Shown here: positions 431 through 11,411 of the stretch, piece by piece
How the letters are laid out: each line of letters begins with the position of its first letter
How positions within the stretch are numbered: position 1 is the stretch's first letter
DNA from: Variimorphobacter saccharofermentans
Lineage (GTDB): Bacteria; Bacillota; Clostridia; Lachnospirales; Lachnospiraceae
Reading direction: 5' to 3'
Length of the DNA stretch: 12,504 bases
Assembly: GCF_014174405.1 (NCBI RefSeq)
Contig: NZ_JACEGA010000002.1
Location: forward strand, 1-12,504
Translations under genes and position numbers: made by a program
The notes under the pieces: model-generated
Told to the model about the DNA's origin: nothing
Databases searched by the model: none
What the model saw: the letters and a program-made list of their open reading frames with translations, nothing else

Positions 431-448
431 AAACACAAGAAGTACAAA
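431..448. promoter_or_regulatory. Two 9-bp repeats upstream of the recombinase promoter
   Basis: Units AAACACAAG and AAGTACAAA lie in tandem 15 bases before the -35 box of the recombinase promoter. The same two units occur in the ParA-partner gene (3121-3201) and, in related form, after the promoter at 8831. I infer a protein-binding site, perhaps for the ribbon-helix-helix protein at 3058. Confidence 0.45.
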
Positions 449-463
449 TTTATTTTATATCTA

Positions 464-492
464 TTGACATTAATTGATAAAAATTATATAAT
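464..492 (+). promoter_or_regulatory. SigA-type promoter for the recombinase operon
   Basis: Perfect TTGACA (464-469) and TATAAT (487-492) are separated by exactly 17 bases. Transcription would start near 499, just before the ribosome site AGAGGTGATG and the ATG at 513. This is a consensus vegetative promoter, so the recombinase should be expressed by the host polymerase without help from the plasmid sigma factor, unless the 9-bp repeats just upstream bind a repressor. Confidence 0.9.
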
Positions 493-512: not shown

Positions 513-1571
513 ATGAACACGAAGCTACAAGTACAAGAGGTACAAATAACACAAAATGTACAATTTAACGCTTCTTTATTTACCAGGTTTATAGAATATA
601 CAGATGTAAAAGAAACCACCCTTAAAGGCTATGCTGTATGCCTTAGAGCTTTTGCAAGATGGTTGCAAAGGAACAATATAATCCGGCCAACAAGAGAAGA
701 TATTAAAGCCTATAAAGAAGAGCTGGAACGTAGCGACTTTACTGCCGGGACTAAGCAGCAATATTTAAGGGCTGTTAAACACTTCTTCAAATGGACTTCA
801 AGCGAGGGCTTATATCCTAATATTGCCGACAATATTAAGGGTGCCAAGGTAAAACACGACAACACCAAAAAAGACGCTTTAAAGGAATCCGACATCATAA
901 ATATTTGTAATAGCATAGACCGAAACACAACAACAGGAAAAAGAGATTATGCTATGATCCTTCTTTCTGTAACCGGCGGGCTAAGAATTATCGAATTACA
1001 CAGAGCCAACATTGAAGACATCAAGACCATAGCCGGGGAAAAGGTTTTATTCATCCAGGGAAAAGGTAGGGATGAAAAAGATGAATACATCAAACTTGTA
1101 CCGGAAGTACAAGAAGCATTAGAAGCATATCTAAATACCCGTCCAGGAGCTAAAAAGAAAGAAGCCCTTTTTGTCAGCACAAGCAATAACAGCAAAGGGC
1201 AACGCATTACAGAGCCAAGCATAAGCCGATTAATAAAAAATATATTTAGAGCTGCAGGATATGACAGCGATCGAATAACCGCCCACAGTTTAAGACATAC
1301 AGCAGTAACAATGCTTCTTAAAAGCGGAAGTTCCATACAACAAGCTCAACACTTTGCCCGCCATGCAGACCCGGCCACAACAGGAATATACGCCCACAAT
1401 ATTGAAAGGGAAAAGGATCATAGCGAGCAGGCTATATTTAATTATATATTTAAAAAAGATGATGAAAGCAAATTACAGGAAGCCCAGGAGCTTCTGGAAG
1501 AGCTTGACCAGGACGAACTAAATAAAGCATTACAGTATTTAAGATCCATTAGAAAGGAGATGATAGCGTGA
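513..1571 (+). CDS. Tyrosine recombinase, Xer-like, 352 aa
   Basis: It cuts and rejoins DNA through a phosphotyrosine intermediate. On a plasmid it would resolve multimers or integrate and excise the element. All catalytic residues are visible: Arg158 (GGLRIIEL), Lys184 (QGKGR), His258 and Arg261 (HSLRH), His284 (ARHADPATT) and the nucleophile Tyr293 (GIYAH). Residues about 20-110 match the N-terminal SAM-like core-binding domain. Two things are odd. The N-terminus holds a Q-rich run (residues 7-18) encoded by 9-bp GTACAA repeats. After Tyr293 there are 59 more residues, a charged, probably helical or coiled tail far longer than the usual 15-20 in XerC/XerD. AGAGGTGATG precedes the ATG. The stop overlaps the start of the helix-turn-helix gene. 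It could serve resolution or integration; the sequence does not decide. Confidence 0.93.
   Translation: MNTKLQVQEVQITQNVQFNASLFTRFIEYTDVKETTLKGYAVCLRAFARWLQRNNIIRPTREDIKAYKEELERSDFTAGTKQQYLRAVKHFFKWTSSEGLYPNIADNIKGAKVKHDNTKKDALKESDIINICNSIDRNTTTGKRDYAMILLSVTGGLRIIELHRANIEDIKTIAGEKVLFIQGKGRDEKDEYIKLVPEVQEALEAYLNTRPGAKKKEALFVSTSNNSKGQRITEPSISRLIKNIFRAAGYDSDRITAHSLRHTAVTMLLKSGSSIQQAQHFARHADPATTGIYAHNIEREKDHSEQAIFNYIFKKDDESKLQEAQELLEELDQDELNKALQYLRSIRKEMIA
531..566 (+). repeat. In-frame 9-bp GTACAA repeats inside the recombinase gene
   Basis: Four units of nine bases run in frame: GTACAAGAG, GTACAAATA, ACACAAAAT and GTACAATTT. They encode VQE-VQI-TQN-VQF. The region precedes the folded core-binding domain. 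The motif matches the repeats at 431, 3121 and 8860. Confidence 0.55.
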
Positions 1572-1774
1572 GCGCAGGAAGACCTAAAAAAGACTTACAG
1601 CGACCGGAAGATCTGAACCAACTATTTTATAATATTTATGAAACCGCTGATATTCTGGGCGTACACGAAAGAACAGTAAGACGCCTTATTAAGGATAATG
1701 AATTGAAAGCCTTTAAGGTAGGGCGTGTATGGAGAATTTCCAGGGAAGCAATCGAGGAGCTTACGAAAAATTAG
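1568..1774 (+). CDS. Helix-turn-helix DNA-binding protein, excisionase/MerR-type, 68 aa
   Basis: Residues about 22-65 (YNIYETADILGVHERTVRRL followed by a wing with AFKVGRVWRISREAIEEL) are the compact winged helix-turn-helix of the HTH_17/excisionase family. Such proteins bend DNA next to recombination sites or act as small regulators. Translation starts at GTG 1568, in a GTGA overlap with the recombinase stop, with AAGGAG at 1554-1559 and an 8-base spacer, so the two are translationally coupled. This pairing fits recombination directionality control, but the protein could equally repress the downstream partition-replication operon, since a conserved 26-bp site begins inside its last codons. 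The N-terminal 15 residues are basic and probably disordered. Confidence 0.85.
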   Translation: MSAGRPKKDLQRPEDLNQLFYNIYETADILGVHERTVRRLIKDNELKAFKVGRVWRISREAIEELTKN

Positions 1775-1794
1775 ACGTATAACTTAACGTAGAA
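1769..1794 (+). promoter_or_regulatory. 26-bp conserved site, copy 1, before the partition-replication operon
   Basis: AATTA, two variable bases, C, then GTATAACTTAACGTAGAA. Copies 2 and 3 lie at 5038-5063 (+) and 8771-8796 (-). The core GT..AACTTAAC is shared with the origin iterons. It lies 13 bases before the ATG at 1808 and overlaps its probable promoter: TATAAC at 1778-1783 could be a -10 box, but no -35 is conserved among copies. It may be an initiator operator or a promoter for the plasmid sigma factor. Confidence 0.6.
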
Positions 1795-2283: not shown

Positions 2284-3042
2284 ATGAGCAGAACAATAAC
2301 TATAACCAATCAAAAAGGCGGTGTAGGAAAGACCACTACAGCCCACGCCATAGCTACCGGATTAAACCATAGAGGACTTAAAACCCTTTTAGTGGATCTT
2401 GATCCACAAAGTAATTTAACGTATACAATGGGCGCAGATGGAAGCACACCGACCATATATGAGTTATTCAATGAAGAAATTAAAAACCCCTCTTCTGTTA
2501 TCCATCATATGGAACACGGAGATCTTATACCAGGCAGCTTACTACTTGCCGGGGCAGATATGGAATATACAAAGCCTGGGCGTGAATATATCCTTAATGA
2601 GATCCTAGAGCCTTTAAAGGGTGATTATGAATATATTGTTATTGATACTCCACCCGCACTTGGAATACTTACTATAAATGCCCTAACCGCTTCAAATAGC
2701 CTTATTATTCCCATGGGTGCAGATATATATAGCTTACAAGGCTTAAGCCAATTAAGGGGGCTTGTAGACAACGTAAGGAAGTATTGTAATAAAGATCTTA
2801 TTGTAGAGGGCTTACTAATAACAAGATATAATAAAAGAGCAATTATCAGTAGAAACTTAAAAGAGGTTATGCAGGAAACAGCTAAGCAGTTAGAAACCAA
2901 GGTATTTGATACAGTTATAAGAGAGGGTATAGCGATCAAAGAAGCCCAGGCAATGCAAACTACCATATACGATAATTCACCCAATGCGAACGTAACGCAG
3001 GACTATAGCAGCCTATTGGATGAGCTGTTAAATAAAAGGTAA
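2284..3042 (+). CDS. parA: ParA-family partition ATPase, 252 aa
   Basis: It is a deviant-Walker ATPase that positions and segregates plasmid copies along the nucleoid together with a centromere-binding partner. Visible motifs are the deviant Walker A KGGVGKTT (residues 11-18), the A' motif VDLDPQSN (38-44) and the Walker B IDTPPALG (120-127). It is short and lacks the N-terminal DNA-binding domain of type Ia ParA, so it resembles type Ib/Soj-like proteins, which pair with small ribbon-helix-helix partners; such a gene follows 15 bases later. The ATG at 2284 is chosen because the ATP-binding strand begins at once (MSRTITITNQ) and GGGGAG lies at 2268-2273. The in-frame start further upstream would overlap the preceding gene by 50 bases. 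Confidence 0.93.
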   Translation: MSRTITITNQKGGVGKTTTAHAIATGLNHRGLKTLLVDLDPQSNLTYTMGADGSTPTIYELFNEEIKNPSSVIHHMEHGDLIPGSLLLAGADMEYTKPGREYILNEILEPLKGDYEYIVIDTPPALGILTINALTASNSLIIPMGADIYSLQGLSQLRGLVDNVRKYCNKDLIVEGLLITRYNKRAIISRNLKEVMQETAKQLETKVFDTVIREGIAIKEAQAMQTTIYDNSPNANVTQDYSSLLDELLNKR

Positions 3043-3057
3043 AGAGAGGTTATTATA

Positions 3058-3390
3058 ATGGCGAAAGACTATACCGACAAATTAAAAAATGTTTCTGAAA
3101 AGTTTTTTACAGGAATACAACCGACACAAGAAACTCATAATATACAAGAAGAACATGAAGTACAAGAAGTATATGAAGCGCAACAAGTACAACAAACACA
3201 AGGTAAAAAAGGCTTTAAAATGCAGCGTATTAATATGGCATTTACCCCGGACAATATAGACTTTATCAGAATAATGGCTAAGATCAAAGGGCAGACAATG
3301 ACGCAATTCGTCAACAGCATATTAGACCAAGAAAGAGAAGCCAAAGAAGAGGTGTACCAAGAAGCTAAGAAGCTGATAGAAAAACTCTAA
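3058..3390 (+). CDS. Ribbon-helix-helix ParA-partner (centromere-binding) protein, 110 aa
   Basis: Residues about 54-92 (KMQRINMAFTPDNIDFIRIM then a second helix with MTQFVNSILDQ) fit the MetJ/Arc ribbon-helix-helix fold: a beta strand that inserts in the DNA groove, then two helices for dimerisation. Known ParG/omega-type partners have this layout, with a flexible N-terminus that stimulates ParA. Here the N-terminus (1-20) is followed by an unusual three-residue repeat, PTQ-ETH-NIQ-EEH-EVQ-EVY-EAQ-QVQ-QTQ (22-48), encoded by nine 9-bp units. Because the same 9-bp motif occurs in non-coding DNA, I infer that the gene carries its own binding sites. A charged helix (92-110) ends the protein. 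The ribosome site AGAGAGG precedes ATG 3058. A repressor role is an alternative or additional function. Confidence 0.8.
   Translation: MAKDYTDKLKNVSEKFFTGIQPTQETHNIQEEHEVQEVYEAQQVQQTQGKKGFKMQRINMAFTPDNIDFIRIMAKIKGQTMTQFVNSILDQEREAKEEVYQEAKKLIEKL
3121..3201 (+). repeat. Nine in-frame 9-bp repeats in the ParA-partner gene (candidate centromere)
   Basis: Exactly 81 bases divide into nine 9-bp units. The best conserved are GAAGTACAA (3157-3165) and CAAGTACAA (3184-3192); others are degenerate (GAAACTCAT, AATATACAA, GAAGAACAT, GAAGTATAT, GAAGCGCAA, CAAACACAA). Ribbon-helix-helix centromere binders are known to bind short tandem repeats. I infer a parS-like array inside the coding region. Confidence 0.5.
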
Positions 3391-3408: not shown

Positions 3409-4734
3409 ATGACTAGCGAAAATTATTTTGATATGTTGGATCGGTTTATGAAATCACATGACAATTTAACAAAACATAAATATGCAGTTGAAGATCTTGA
3501 AAATCAATTATGCAGCCTGCCGGGGGTGACAGAAGAGCAGGGAAACCTTATCATTTATTTTCTTTCCAGGCATTGTCTTTTTGGCGATTATGCGGATATT
3601 TTAAGTCTTGTTATACAGGATATTTCAGAAAACGGAGTAGATAAAGTATTAAAAGAAATTCATGAAATAGAGGAAAGCCAGGAAAATGACGATTTCTTAT
3701 TCAATCTAAAGAAGACATCTAAAAGCAACAGGCCTTTAATAGTTACCAATGATGAAGAAATAGAAACTCTCCCTGGTAAACCAACTGAAATGTTCTTCAA
3801 AAATATCACAAAGCTTGCTAAAAATATGCCTAGCAATAATTTGAACAGGGAATTAACCCTCACTGTTTCCGGACAAAAAAGCAAGAAAAAGGTGAAAATA
3901 AAGGCGGAAATAACAGCCCTTATAATAAAGGATAAGAATGTAAATATTAATTCCCCTATTAACTTTTATGATATGTTAATTCTGGATGCTATTGATTCCC
4001 TATGGGAAGCTGGTAATTATATTTTTACAAGTGACATGGTCGCTAGAGTGGCTAAGTTTCTAGGCGGAAGCGCTTATATTAAAGACAATGCAGTAATGCA
4101 AGTAGAAGAAAGTATAGAGAAGTTAAGAGGTACGAAAGTAACAATAACATATACAGATCAGTTAAATATGTATCGAAAAGCGCATGAAAAAGTTGATAAA
4201 GCAGTCTTAGACGATATGGCGCTTTCCTTAACTGGTGCAACCGTTAAAGCCGGGGGCAATATTGTAAAGGGCTATCAATTCAACACTATGCCTATTCTAT
4301 GGAGATATGCTAAAGACGTCGGCAATTATACATCCATTGAAATCAGCAAGATGAATACAAAAGATTGTTTAAAAGCCACTGACGGTATATCTATTATGAA
4401 AAGCTATATTTTCGGAAGAATAGCCGAAATGAAAAATGAAAAAAGGAAAAGCATGAACCGTATCAGATACAGGGAAATTTATGAACAGGTAGGCCTTATC
4501 TCAATGGAAGATAATGAAAAATATGATAACGGTAAATATAAGAAGCCTTTAAAGGATATTAACTGTCCTAAGGAAAAAGCCAGGGACATAAGAAATAATG
4601 CGAAAATATTTCTCAATCATCTTGTAAAACAGGATTACATAAAGGGCTTCAAAGAATACAGCTACGCAGACATAAAAGATAACGAAGGAGAAGACAAAAG
4701 AACAAAAGTAGGATTGGAAATTTTCTATCAGTAG
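3409..4734 (+). CDS. rep: Plasmid replication initiator protein, 441 aa
   Basis: I call this the initiator from context and a partial fold match. It is the largest gene of the partition operon, and two base pairs after its stop a set of four perfect 19-bp iterons begins. The region from about residue 170 (NINSPINFYDMLILDAIDSL, then TSDMVARVAKFLGG) resembles the winged-helix domains of iteron-binding Rep proteins, followed by a second basic helical region (about 320-400, with ISIMKSYIFGRIAEMKNEKR). The first 110 residues are an acidic helical extension, and basic KSKKKVKIK lies near 155. That is longer than typical Rep_3 initiators of 250-350 residues. AGGTGA (3394-3399) with a 9-base spacer sets the ATG at 3409. 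The iteron-like core at 1769 suggests autoregulation of its own operon. Confidence 0.75.
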   Translation: MTSENYFDMLDRFMKSHDNLTKHKYAVEDLENQLCSLPGVTEEQGNLIIYFLSRHCLFGDYADILSLVIQDISENGVDKVLKEIHEIEESQENDDFLFNLKKTSKSNRPLIVTNDEEIETLPGKPTEMFFKNITKLAKNMPSNNLNRELTLTVSGQKSKKKVKIKAEITALIIKDKNVNINSPINFYDMLILDAIDSLWEAGNYIFTSDMVARVAKFLGGSAYIKDNAVMQVEESIEKLRGTKVTITYTDQLNMYRKAHEKVDKAVLDDMALSLTGATVKAGGNIVKGYQFNTMPILWRYAKDVGNYTSIEISKMNTKDCLKATDGISIMKSYIFGRIAEMKNEKRKSMNRIRYREIYEQVGLISMEDNEKYDNGKYKKPLKDINCPKEKARDIRNNAKIFLNHLVKQDYIKGFKEYSYADIKDNEGEDKRTKVGLEIFYQ

Positions 4735-4735
4735 T

Positions 4736-4829
4736 GGGTGCAACTTAACTACACTAGGGGTGCAACTTAACTACACCAAAATAAAAAAGGGTGCAACTTA
4801 ACTACACTAGGGGTGCAACTTAACTACAC
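4736..4829 (+). repeat. Four 19-bp iterons (initiator binding sites)
   Basis: Perfect copies of GGGTGCAACTTAACTACAC lie at 4736-4754, 4758-4776, 4789-4807 and 4811-4829. Start-to-start distances are 22, 31 and 22 bases, close to two and three helical turns, so all copies lie on about one face of the DNA. A 45-base block (two iterons plus CAAA) is exactly duplicated at 4736-4780 and 4789-4833, so the array arose by doubling of a pair. Confidence 0.92.
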
Positions 4830-4928
4830 CAAACTCGAATGCAATTATAAGGACAAACTCTTTGTTATCAAGCCTTTAAGGGGTACTCTCTAAATTGGGT
4901 ATAAGTAAACTGTAGGTACTACAGTATG

Positions 4929-5037: not shown

Positions 5038-5063
5038 AATTATCCGTATAACTTAACATAGAA
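5038..5063 (+). promoter_or_regulatory. 26-bp conserved site, copy 2, between origin and leader
   Basis: AATTA, TC, C, then GTATAACTTAACATAGAA. It differs from copy 1 (1769) in the two variable bases and one A/G. It points toward the 5263-5938 genes. If TATAAC (5047-5052) is a -10 box, the transcript would start near 5059, just ahead of the leader hairpins. Confidence 0.55.
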
Positions 5064-8747: not shown

Positions 8748-8770
8748 TAAGTTACCCTTTAAAGGCATTT

Positions 8771-8796
8771 TTCTATGTTAAGTTATACATGTAATT
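8771..8796 (-). promoter_or_regulatory. 26-bp conserved site, copy 3, facing the minus-strand gene
   Basis: On the minus strand: AATTA, CA, T, then GTATAACTTAACATAGAA, as at 1769 and 5038. It is about 110 bases upstream of the Cys-rich helix-turn-helix gene and points toward it, while the plus-strand promoter at 8831 lies behind it. Confidence 0.55.
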
Positions 8797-8830
8797 TTAC
8801 ATAAAGAGTATAAAACAAAATAAAAGAACA

Positions 8831-8859
8831 TAGACAAATATATGTTTTTGTTGTATAAT
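8831..8859 (+). promoter_or_regulatory. SigA-type promoter for the small-gene operon
   Basis: TAGACA (8831-8836) and a perfect TATAAT (8854-8859) are separated by 17 bases. Transcription would begin near 8866, inside the 9-bp repeats, and lead to the ATG at 8911. Confidence 0.8.
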
Positions 8860-8895
8860 AAGTACAAGAAGTTTATTAAGTACAAAAAGTACAAA
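8860..8895 (+). promoter_or_regulatory. Four tandem 9-bp repeats over the start site of the 8911 operon
   Basis: Units AAGTACAAG, AAGTTTATT, AAGTACAAA and AAGTACAAA begin immediately after the -10 box. Three of four units are near identical. A protein bound here would cover the transcription start, so this looks like an operator. The unit matches those in the ParA-partner gene. Confidence 0.6.
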
Positions 8896-8910
8896 GGGAG
8901 TGAAAAGCCT

Positions 8911-9180
8911 ATGATGTCAGATGAAGAATTTAATAGCCTGGAATTTAGAGAGATAAAAACCATTAAAGACATGACAGCCTTAAAAGGGGCTACCATTACG
9001 GATATTGAACCGACGTATGCCGGGTACTATGAAAATGGATCACAGGTAATAAGCGGGGTAATTCTCTATGTAAATATGGCCGACGGAAGTCAGAGGGTAT
9101 GTTCTATAGATTGCCCTGCCCCCTGGGAGATAGAGAGTGATAAACCAATATTAATGATGTTATCTATAACGAAGGAGTGA
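8911..9180 (+). CDS. Hypothetical protein, 89 aa
   Basis: I do not recognise this protein. The ATG at 8911 (or 8914) follows AGGGAG. The in-frame ATG at 8842 is rejected because it lies within the promoter and would translate the 9-bp repeats. An acidic helical N-terminus (MMSDEEFNSLEFREIKTIKD) precedes a strand-rich domain (TITDIEPTYAGYYENGSQVI then VILYVNMADGSQRVCSIDCP). CSIDC is a possible metal or redox pair. It is the first gene after the repeat-covered promoter, and its stop overlaps the next gene's ribosome site. Confidence 0.75.
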   Translation: MMSDEEFNSLEFREIKTIKDMTALKGATITDIEPTYAGYYENGSQVISGVILYVNMADGSQRVCSIDCPAPWEIESDKPILMMLSITKE

Positions 9181-10529: not shown

Positions 10530-11411
10530 TTGCTGACTAATGAAGAACTTGTCGAGAAAATAAAACAAGGCATAGATGCTTCAAGAAACCTTGAGCTTCT
10601 CTATAAGCAGAACGAACAATACATTCGTAAAATTGCCAACCGATACCGCGGGTATGCAGAAATAGAAGATCTGATGCAAGAGGGCTATTTTGGACTATAT
10701 GAAGCCGTACAAAGATATGAAAATGAGCATGAAGTTCTGTTTATGTCATATGCCGGCTTCTGGATAGCCCAGGCAATCAAAAGATACATAGAAAATAGCG
10801 GGAGATCATTAAGACTTCCGGTGCATCTGCATGAATTGATATACAAGTATAAAAGAATAGTTAATGCTTATATGTCACAGCTAGGCAGAAATCCAACTGA
10901 TAAGGAGTTATGCAGGCATCTAAGAATAAGTCCTAACCGGCTTAAAAACCTTGAAAGGTATATTTATGAGTATGGACAAATAGAAAGCTTGGACGAACCT
11001 GTAAACAGCTCTGAAGATGGTGACCTATTAGTGTGCGATACCGTTCCGGATAGCACAAATATTGAGAATGAAGTGGTTAATAAAATTATTGAACAGGATC
11101 TTAAAACCGGGTTATGGCAGATTGTAGAAAAGAATACTACGGAAGAGGAAAACCAGGTTATTCTATACAGATTTAAAAATAATCTCACTTTAAAGGCAAC
11201 AGGAGATAATATAGGAAAAACCATTGAAAGAGCTAGGCAATTAGAAAACAGTGCTCTTAAAAAATTACGCCGGAGCCGGATAATAAGAGAACTAGAGGAA
11301 AGATACGCTATAAGCTATTCACAAGCCTATAAAGGTAGTTTATCAAGCTTTAGATATTCCTGGATGTCTTCCACAGAAAAGGCTGCCTTTACAAAAATGG
11401 GTGTTGATTAA
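10530..11411 (+). CDS. Sigma-70 family RNA polymerase sigma factor, 293 aa
   Basis: It would direct host RNA polymerase to plasmid promoters. Region 2 is clear (about 25-90: AEIEDLMQEGYFGLYEAVQR then FMSYAGFWIAQAIKRYI), including the -10 recognition helix. Region 3 follows (about 92-150: RSLRLPVHLHELIYKYKRIV then GRNPTDKELCRHLRIS). Region 4 is present but weak (about 205-250: NNLTLKATGDNIGKTIERAR), with a poor -35 recognition helix, then a 40-residue tail. Region 1.1 is absent. The start is TTG 10530: GGGG at 10518-10521 lies 8 bases upstream and the sigma homology begins soon after. The in-frame ATG at 10413 would overlap the previous gene in another frame. The divergence in region 4 would suit promoters recognised mainly through the -10. 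Confidence 0.92.
   Translation: MLTNEELVEKIKQGIDASRNLELLYKQNEQYIRKIANRYRGYAEIEDLMQEGYFGLYEAVQRYENEHEVLFMSYAGFWIAQAIKRYIENSGRSLRLPVHLHELIYKYKRIVNAYMSQLGRNPTDKELCRHLRISPNRLKNLERYIYEYGQIESLDEPVNSSEDGDLLVCDTVPDSTNIENEVVNKIIEQDLKTGLWQIVEKNTTEEENQVILYRFKNNLTLKATGDNIGKTIERARQLENSALKKLRRSRIIRELEERYAISYSQAYKGSLSSFRYSWMSSTEKAAFTKMGVD

Follow-up and report, generated by a model that had tools for sequence, protein, structure and literature searches.

Tandem arrays of a 9-bp unit, RYACAARNN, lie next to two promoters of a circular plasmid from Variimorphobacter saccharofermentans and also inside the gene that adjoins its parA. Comparison with related plasmids shows that these repeats are a DNA-level family that stands at promoters in a fixed register and tracks the pair formed by ParA and its partner protein; it confirms the observation of an earlier note and partly supports the interpretation given there. 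We consider it likely that the partner binds the repeats, in which case the promoter arrays would act as operators and the in-gene array would be the likeliest parS. A broader proposal, which we put forward tentatively and with a little less than even confidence, is that one 9-bp RYACAARNN code serves both partition and regulation throughout a large plasmid family of the gut whose members measure roughly 10-15 kb. At two promoters the arrays would be operators in a fixed register, and in the ParA partner, the primase-helicase and the recombinase, which are unrelated proteins, they would be centromeres that translate into amino-acid triplets of flexible linkers.

The plasmid and its 9-bp repeat

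The window, that is, the whole stretch of 12,504 nucleotides analysed, represents a 12,377-bp circular plasmid with a 127-bp terminal repeat, which is contig C2 of a 4.16-Mb genome. Two small ORFs lie between the excisionase-like gene and the ParA gene, and the gene order (Table 1) suggests that promoter 464-492 probably drives an operon of recombinase-excisionase-orf-orf-ParA-partner-Rep. Type Ib systems have a Walker-type ParA without an extra N-terminal DNA-binding domain. The window ParA is a protein of 252 aa that the ATPase families match from residue 3, for which Pfam reported no DNA-binding domain and which matches NCBIfam ParA_partition at E 3.7e-29 (under the family cut-off); its predicted domain content is that of a type Ib ParA. 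Neither the Rep candidate nor orf 8911-9180 has a Pfam, NCBIfam or PHROG match at E 0.01, and four iteron-like GGTGCAACTTAACTACAC units lie directly 3' of the presumed Rep gene, at 4736-4833. The plasmid itself also encodes a sigma-70-family factor (window 10530-11411, Pfam). On both strands of the window 49 promoter-like sites were found against 37.7 expected by chance; 464-492 and 8831-8859 are the two best matches on the plus strand, and a repeat array adjoins each.

Table 1 Features of the V. saccharofermentans plasmid (window coordinates)
Feature	Position	Strand	Remark
Upstream array, two units ACACAAGAA GTACAAATT	433..450	+	inverted TTGTGT at 421-426
Promoter TTGACA-17-TATAAT	464..492	+	only 12/12 sigma-70 match in window
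XerC/XerD-like tyrosine recombinase	513..1571	+	Pfam Phage_integrase E 3.1e-27
Downstream array, four units, recombinase N-terminus, residues VQEVQITQNVQF	531..566	+	9-unit score 29.5
Excisionase-like HTH	1568..1774	+	second gene of co-directional run
ParA-type ATPase	2284..3042	+	Pfam AAA_31 E 7.5e-51
ParA-partner gene, 110 aa	3058..3390	+	adjoins parA
In-gene array, ten units RYACAARNN, several degenerate	3115..3204	+	best 9-unit stretch in window
Presumed replication initiator (Rep), last gene of first operon	3409..4734	+	assigned only by position and iteron-like repeats 4736-4833
Promoter TAGACA-17-TATAAT of second operon	8831..8859	+	11/12 match
Array, four units, one degenerate	8862..8897	+	just after -10 to ribosome-binding site of orf 8911
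First gene of second operon	8911..9180	+	downstream of promoter 8831-8859

An earlier note, made from the window sequence only, had described four repeat loci at about these positions, and all of them are present in the sequence. Its unit, AAGTACAAR, did not hold up, since the natural unit is RYACAARNN and begins one codon later than in the earlier frame. Likewise, the array it placed at 3121-3201 as nine units exists, but in its natural register comprises the ten units given in Table 1. The note had further called two of the loci non-coding, which is right for 431-448; the stretch 8860-8895 is probably leader DNA because it starts directly after the TATAAT -10 element at 8854-8859, but an ORF from an upstream ATG (8842) reads through it.

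Where the earlier note had proposed a motif model built from 8860-8895, we scanned the circle with a weight matrix whose training set was 29 non-coding units from the related plasmids L009, L010 and L158 only, with the window left out, and the top four stretches were the same four loci. The training arrays were chosen by RYACAR at 9-bp steps, a pattern written after the window and its relatives had been viewed, so that the test is not fully blind. Scores of 58.8 at 3124 and 29.5 at 531 were reached by none of 500 dinucleotide shuffles and that of 23.7 at 8853 by one, while the 16.7 at 433 was reached by 47 of 500, so that array 433-450 is not significant alone; the best 9-unit score on the minus strand was 10.5. 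Moreover, RYACAANNNRYACAANNNRYACAA, which represents three successive RYACAA units at 9-bp steps, occurs twice in the 4.16-Mb genome, both times on the plasmid and in overlapping positions (531-563), with no control matches, and two of the four genomic occurrences of GTACAANNNGTACAA are on the plasmid. An isolated GAAGTACAA at 1104, inside the recombinase gene, lies in a stretch whose matrix score is at chance level. At 421-441 the sequence TTGTGTTAAGAAACACAA forms an inverted motif pair and part of a terminator-like hairpin, so that the terminator of the preceding gene may share DNA with the upstream operator.

Arrays and promoter register in related plasmids

The protein database contains 21 partner homologues including that of the window, many of which have variable-length linkers rich in x-[VTAI]-[QH] (P0018-P0021 are without them). 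The closest relatives, P0002 and P0003, have partners 81-82% identical to that of the window and stand on contigs of 12,497 and 12,601 bp; the DNA-level comparison covers other loci. Loci with DNA were drawn from genome_contigs, viral_contigs and further genomes; one of these scans contributed the best 80 of its 116 relatives, of which L224-L247 are not in the counts. The resulting 67 loci comprise the window, L007-L021, L158, L160 and L171-L223 minus L213, L215, L217 and L218, which are the same contigs as L014, L016, L015 and L018. After removal of loci without a ParA match (L189, L196, L205, L210, L214), without a partner ORF (L197, L199) or with a wrong partner call (L178, L204) and of near-duplicates (L020, L175, L193), 55 loci were left for counting; the partner of L158 was assigned by hand. 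These counts are not independent because L009/L010, L015/L016/L018, L173/L176, L177/L180 and L211/L222 are related. Terminal repeats mark 26 of the 55 loci as probably circular, and the plasmids carrying the repeat span 37-59% GC.

Single-sequence scans of genome_contigs and viral_contigs found nothing, whereas alignment-based scans did find loci; a second such scan with a larger alignment gave eight, none new to the set. Protein searches of plasmids and phages gave no match with the window partner and one weak plasmid match with the L010 partner, and megablast of the whole plasmid against PLSDB gave none. A degenerate four-unit scan of viral_contigs was dropped as unspecific. Further genomes of the order and class yielded mostly weak matches, many in longer frames. 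Five of these contigs were examined: the G003 contig is L158, the G895 contig is L008, and those of G473, G135 and G782 have no RYACAA pair (in G135 and G782, which have weak partner homologues, over 19 and 18 kb). Many IMG/VR viral contigs with the same recombinase (L012-L021, L171-L223) carry ParA, the partner and often a primase-helicase; they look plasmid-like and may alternatively include phage-plasmids.

Same-strand RYACAR pairs in the partner genes of the 55 loci numbered 21, 15, 14, 14 and 9 at spacings of 9, 18, 27, 36 and 45 bp, compared with 0-4 at all other spacings. In non-coding DNA, where the mean was 2.5, there were 14 pairs at 9 bp (Poisson 5e-7), 11 at 18 bp (Poisson 7e-5) and 6 at 27 bp. 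Other coding DNA had 44 and 35 pairs at 9 and 18 bp against 4-24 elsewhere, an excess due in part to ORF calls that extend over some of the non-coding arrays. In 31 of the 55 loci, the window included, at least one array exceeded the best of 60 shuffles, and in 15 such an array lay in the partner gene; the other 24 loci had none. The reversed motif passed the same cut-off in 8/55 loci, indicating that 60 shuffles are not a strict threshold. The matrix ranked the partner gene first in only 10 of 51 held-out loci, where 0.6 were expected.

The arrays keep a constant distance from promoter elements. YACAAGA-N14-TTGAC occurs at 14 places in 13 of the 55 loci, with at most three at any other spacing from 0 to 40; ten of these places are before the recombinase, two before parA (L009, L010) and two without an annotated next gene. 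In the window TACAAAT at 443, within the second unit of 433-450, likewise lies 14 nt before the -35 element. On the other side, TATAMT-N3-YACAAGA occurs in 10/55 loci including the window (at most three at other spacings from 0 to 30), and the reversed motif gave at most one occurrence at any spacing from promoter elements. Repeat arrays at the operon promoter, another feature of type Ib systems, are present here, with 433-450 and 531-566 on the two sides of 464-492.

The earlier note had treated recombinase expression as a separate target of the repeats. That link dissolved, since 433-450 and 531-566 flank a single promoter, probably that of the rec-xis-par-rep operon, and so would be par-operon operators. 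Because the arrays of L009 and L010 likewise flank the promoter before parA, the recombinase N-terminal VQEVQITQNVQ tail is best read as a putative downstream operator that falls in coding sequence. P0023 (87% identical) retains most of the tail, with SAQ in place of NVQ, and P0024-P0027, which are about 70% identical, lack it.

Arrays inside other genes, or just beyond them, vary among the relatives. L171 has an array inside its partner gene, and in L173, whose partner is of another type than the window's, there is no in-gene array and a non-coding one above all 60 shuffles lies directly 3' of the partner stop codon. By eye, YACA runs at about 9-bp steps follow the partner stop codon in L176 and L187, which fail the shuffles, and shorter, partly inverted runs do so in L174/L175, of which L174 fails. 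The primase-helicase gene contains arrays in L172 (9057), L180 (6615), L185 (6588), L186 (8252) and L019 (5250). In an alignment of 43 primase-helicases, which leaves out L185, the array region is an insertion present in one protein (L172) or three (L019), and the arrays of L180 and L186 fall in stretches common to 36 and 25 proteins, respectively. L008 retains single promoter motifs with no in-gene array, showing that the in-gene array is not universal.

From the arrays, their promoter register and their conservation we infer the following mechanism. Partner dimers would load side by side on the 9-bp units. The arrays on either side of 464-492 would be operators repressing the rec-xis-par-rep operon, and array 8862-8897, between the -10 element and the ribosome-binding site, would be an operator repressing the second operon. 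The in-gene array 3115-3204 would most likely be the partition-complex site (parS), pulled by ParA, and its translation a linker of x-[VTI]-[QH] triplets that is probably disordered and tolerates repeats. A simpler scheme would give the partner a role in transcription only, with the in-gene arrays as internal regulatory sites and the centromere elsewhere or at the promoter arrays. Conservation is indeed strictest at the promoters, a review places the centromeres of type Ib systems upstream of the operon (PMC5016525, partial text), and L008, L015, L016 and L018 have promoter motifs and no in-gene array above shuffles. Against this stand the length of the in-gene array, the longest of all and 2.6 kb from the promoter, and the return of arrays at this place in distant relatives, within the partner gene or, in L173, immediately behind it, and we judge a purely regulatory role unlikely.

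The partner protein and comparable partition systems

A profile search with the partner matched ParG (1p94, E 0.0011), KacA (E 0.0018) and ParD (E 0.014), and the same search also lists unrelated capsid fusion chains at E 0.003. In the AlphaFold2 model, which contains no strand, residues 14-36 and 42-55 have pLDDT below 50 and confident helices span 64-77, 81-95 and 97-109; TacA, Arc and CopG were near the top of the Foldseek results, yet all had E above 1. The C-terminal domain is a probable ribbon-helix-helix, given weak profile matches. The array encodes residues 20-49, mostly with pLDDT below 50.

Two circular relatives, L009 (9.5 kb) and L158 (19.2 kb), combine arrays in the partner gene with non-coding ones ahead of parA. 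Compared with 14 window proteins, only ParA matched in them at E 1e-4, the partner being set by homology and position; no recombinase, excisionase, Rep, primase-helicase or sigma match was found at this threshold. The presence of arrays without those other proteins points to the partner as the binder. Arrays occur in 23 of the 28 loci with a TQG-type partner and in 8 of the 27 with other types, window included, and in 20/25 against 8/27 with the training loci excluded (Fisher p 3e-4); the matrix, having been trained on TQG-type plasmids, favours this type, and other types may have a different unit. No array above shuffles was found in 5 of the 28 TQG-type loci.

Another plasmid protein might bind the repeats instead, namely the excisionase-like HTH at 1568, Rep or the plasmid sigma factor. 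Such proteins can act at promoters too, and a recombinase is present in 27 of the 31 array loci. The arrays of L009 and L158 speak against this, with the qualification that distant or unrelated substitutes are possible in these plasmids, and the iterons, as presumed Rep sites, differ in sequence from the arrays; we rate a different binder as very improbable.

The closest working model is the omega/delta system (ParB/ParA, type Ib) of pSM19035, whose omega also acts as a repressor. The two are alike in combining a ParA and a ribbon-helix-helix protein (probable here) with arrays of short repeats. In pSM19035, parS consists of short non-palindromic repeats that are contiguous and overlap several promoters, and full ParA activation takes at least four contiguous ones (PMC9499535, partial text). 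By this measure and as the longest array, the in-gene array would be the best centromere candidate in the window. The unit there is a 7-bp WATCACW, whereas here it is 9 bp and pair spacing peaks at 9, not 7. The omega/delta sites overlap the copS, delta and omega promoters; in the window the longest array is inside the partner gene, and further arrays lie in the recombinase gene and, in relatives, in primase-helicase genes. ParF/ParG of TP228 (type Ib) is similar in that ParG gave the best solved-structure profile match and consists of a flexible tail and a ribbon-helix-helix, type Ib partners having a repressor function (PMC5016525, partial text); it differs in the position of the centromere upstream of the operon, which that text states for type Ib generally.

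Sites inside the gene of their own binding protein have precedents. In Bacillus subtilis, parS sits within spo0J, the gene of its binding protein; this is a single palindromic site on a chromosome read by an HTH-type ParB, unlike the tandem array here. In pSK41 the origin lies inside rep (RepA_N), and the binding sites of Rep encode a linker of Rep (PMC5703833, partial text). The window array, if the partner binds it, would resemble this in placing binding sites inside the binder's own gene as a linker; pSK41 has four Rep boxes within rep that serve its replication origin and initiator, in contrast to dispersed arrays for partition here. The window system would thus work like the pSK41 cis-site without being a member of that class. 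A search of titles and abstract openings in a set of open-access papers returned no ribbon-helix-helix partition array inside a gene.

Should the proposed mechanism hold, the gene of a partition protein could carry the very plasmid centromere which that protein recognises, and a linker that looks like mere low-complexity protein could be a by-product of DNA sites. Relatives with the array inside the gene, set beside the one that has it just beyond the gene, would offer a natural experiment on the entry of cis-sites into coding sequence. Under the broader proposal, the 9-bp period, equal to three codons, would let arrays enter or leave coding sequence without a frame break. The promoter registers (14 nt before -35 and 3 nt after -10) open repression to direct testing, and searches for the centromeres of many uncharacterised gut plasmids can start from the 9-bp unit.

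Codon choice in the coding arrays

The earlier note had suggested comparing synonymous sites and had set against a DNA element the case of relatives that keep the protein repeat with freely varying codons and lack non-coding copies. The relatives do not follow that case, as L009, L010 and L158 each have coding as well as non-coding copies. The codon comparison favours the motif across the family but not in the window alone: synonymous recoding of the window partner gene gave p=0.11 for pairs and p=0.18 for sites, while across the 55 partner genes pairs numbered 21 (5.8 expected, sd 2.2; no more than 14 in any of 2000 simulations) and sites 141 (99.0 expected, sd 7.7). A control of 162 other genes from 30 of the 55 loci also exceeded its recoding null, by a smaller proportion, with 17 pairs (10.1 expected, sd 2.9) and 761 sites (654.6 expected, sd 20.2). 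V/A/T codons before Q/K/H/E end in A in 145/241 cases in the linker and 2316/5913 elsewhere (stratified z 5.4), and the CAA codon accounts for 60/126 in the linker and 445/1452 elsewhere (z 4.4).

These counts bear on the reading that x-[VTI]-[QH] is a functional low-complexity linker with ordinary codons, to which the non-coding copies would be unrelated. It draws on the window gene lying within the synonymous null and on the flexible N-terminal tails of type Ib partners, which act on ParA (PMC5016525, partial text). It leaves aside the non-coding 9-bp arrays with their fixed promoter register, the L173 array just outside the partner gene, the arrays in unrelated proteins and the family-wide codon bias, and is strongly disfavoured, with only a slim chance of being correct.

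Among the closest partner pairs (core identity at least 0.91), four of five linker-length differences counted as independent are multiples of three residues, a count that leaves out one artefact, the apparent 6-residue difference of L180 caused by its start codon; less similar pairs show no such rule. Being confined to the closest pairs, 9-bp linker indels were dropped as strong proof. This length pattern and the tandem units themselves would fit functionless, microsatellite-like slippage of A-rich DNA spread by duplication, an account that we find scarcely credible as it explains neither the fixed promoter distances across 37-59% GC nor the separate arrays at several loci. A co-variation of the last unit bases with partner type was also dropped, owing to confounding by GC content and small numbers.

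The window contains a second dispersed repeat, GTATAACTTAACRTAGAA, with three copies at 1769-1794 (+), 5038-5063 (+) and, inverted, 8770-8804 (-); the inverted copy ends shortly before the 8831 promoter. AACTTAACNTA with at most one mismatch has four matches in the window, a number also reached by 18 of 200 shuffles. The iteron-like units at 4736-4833 share AACTTAAC with it, so that the GTATAACTTAACRTAGAA family may represent Rep sites. CTTAACATAG-like elements were also seen upstream of parA in L171 and L173.
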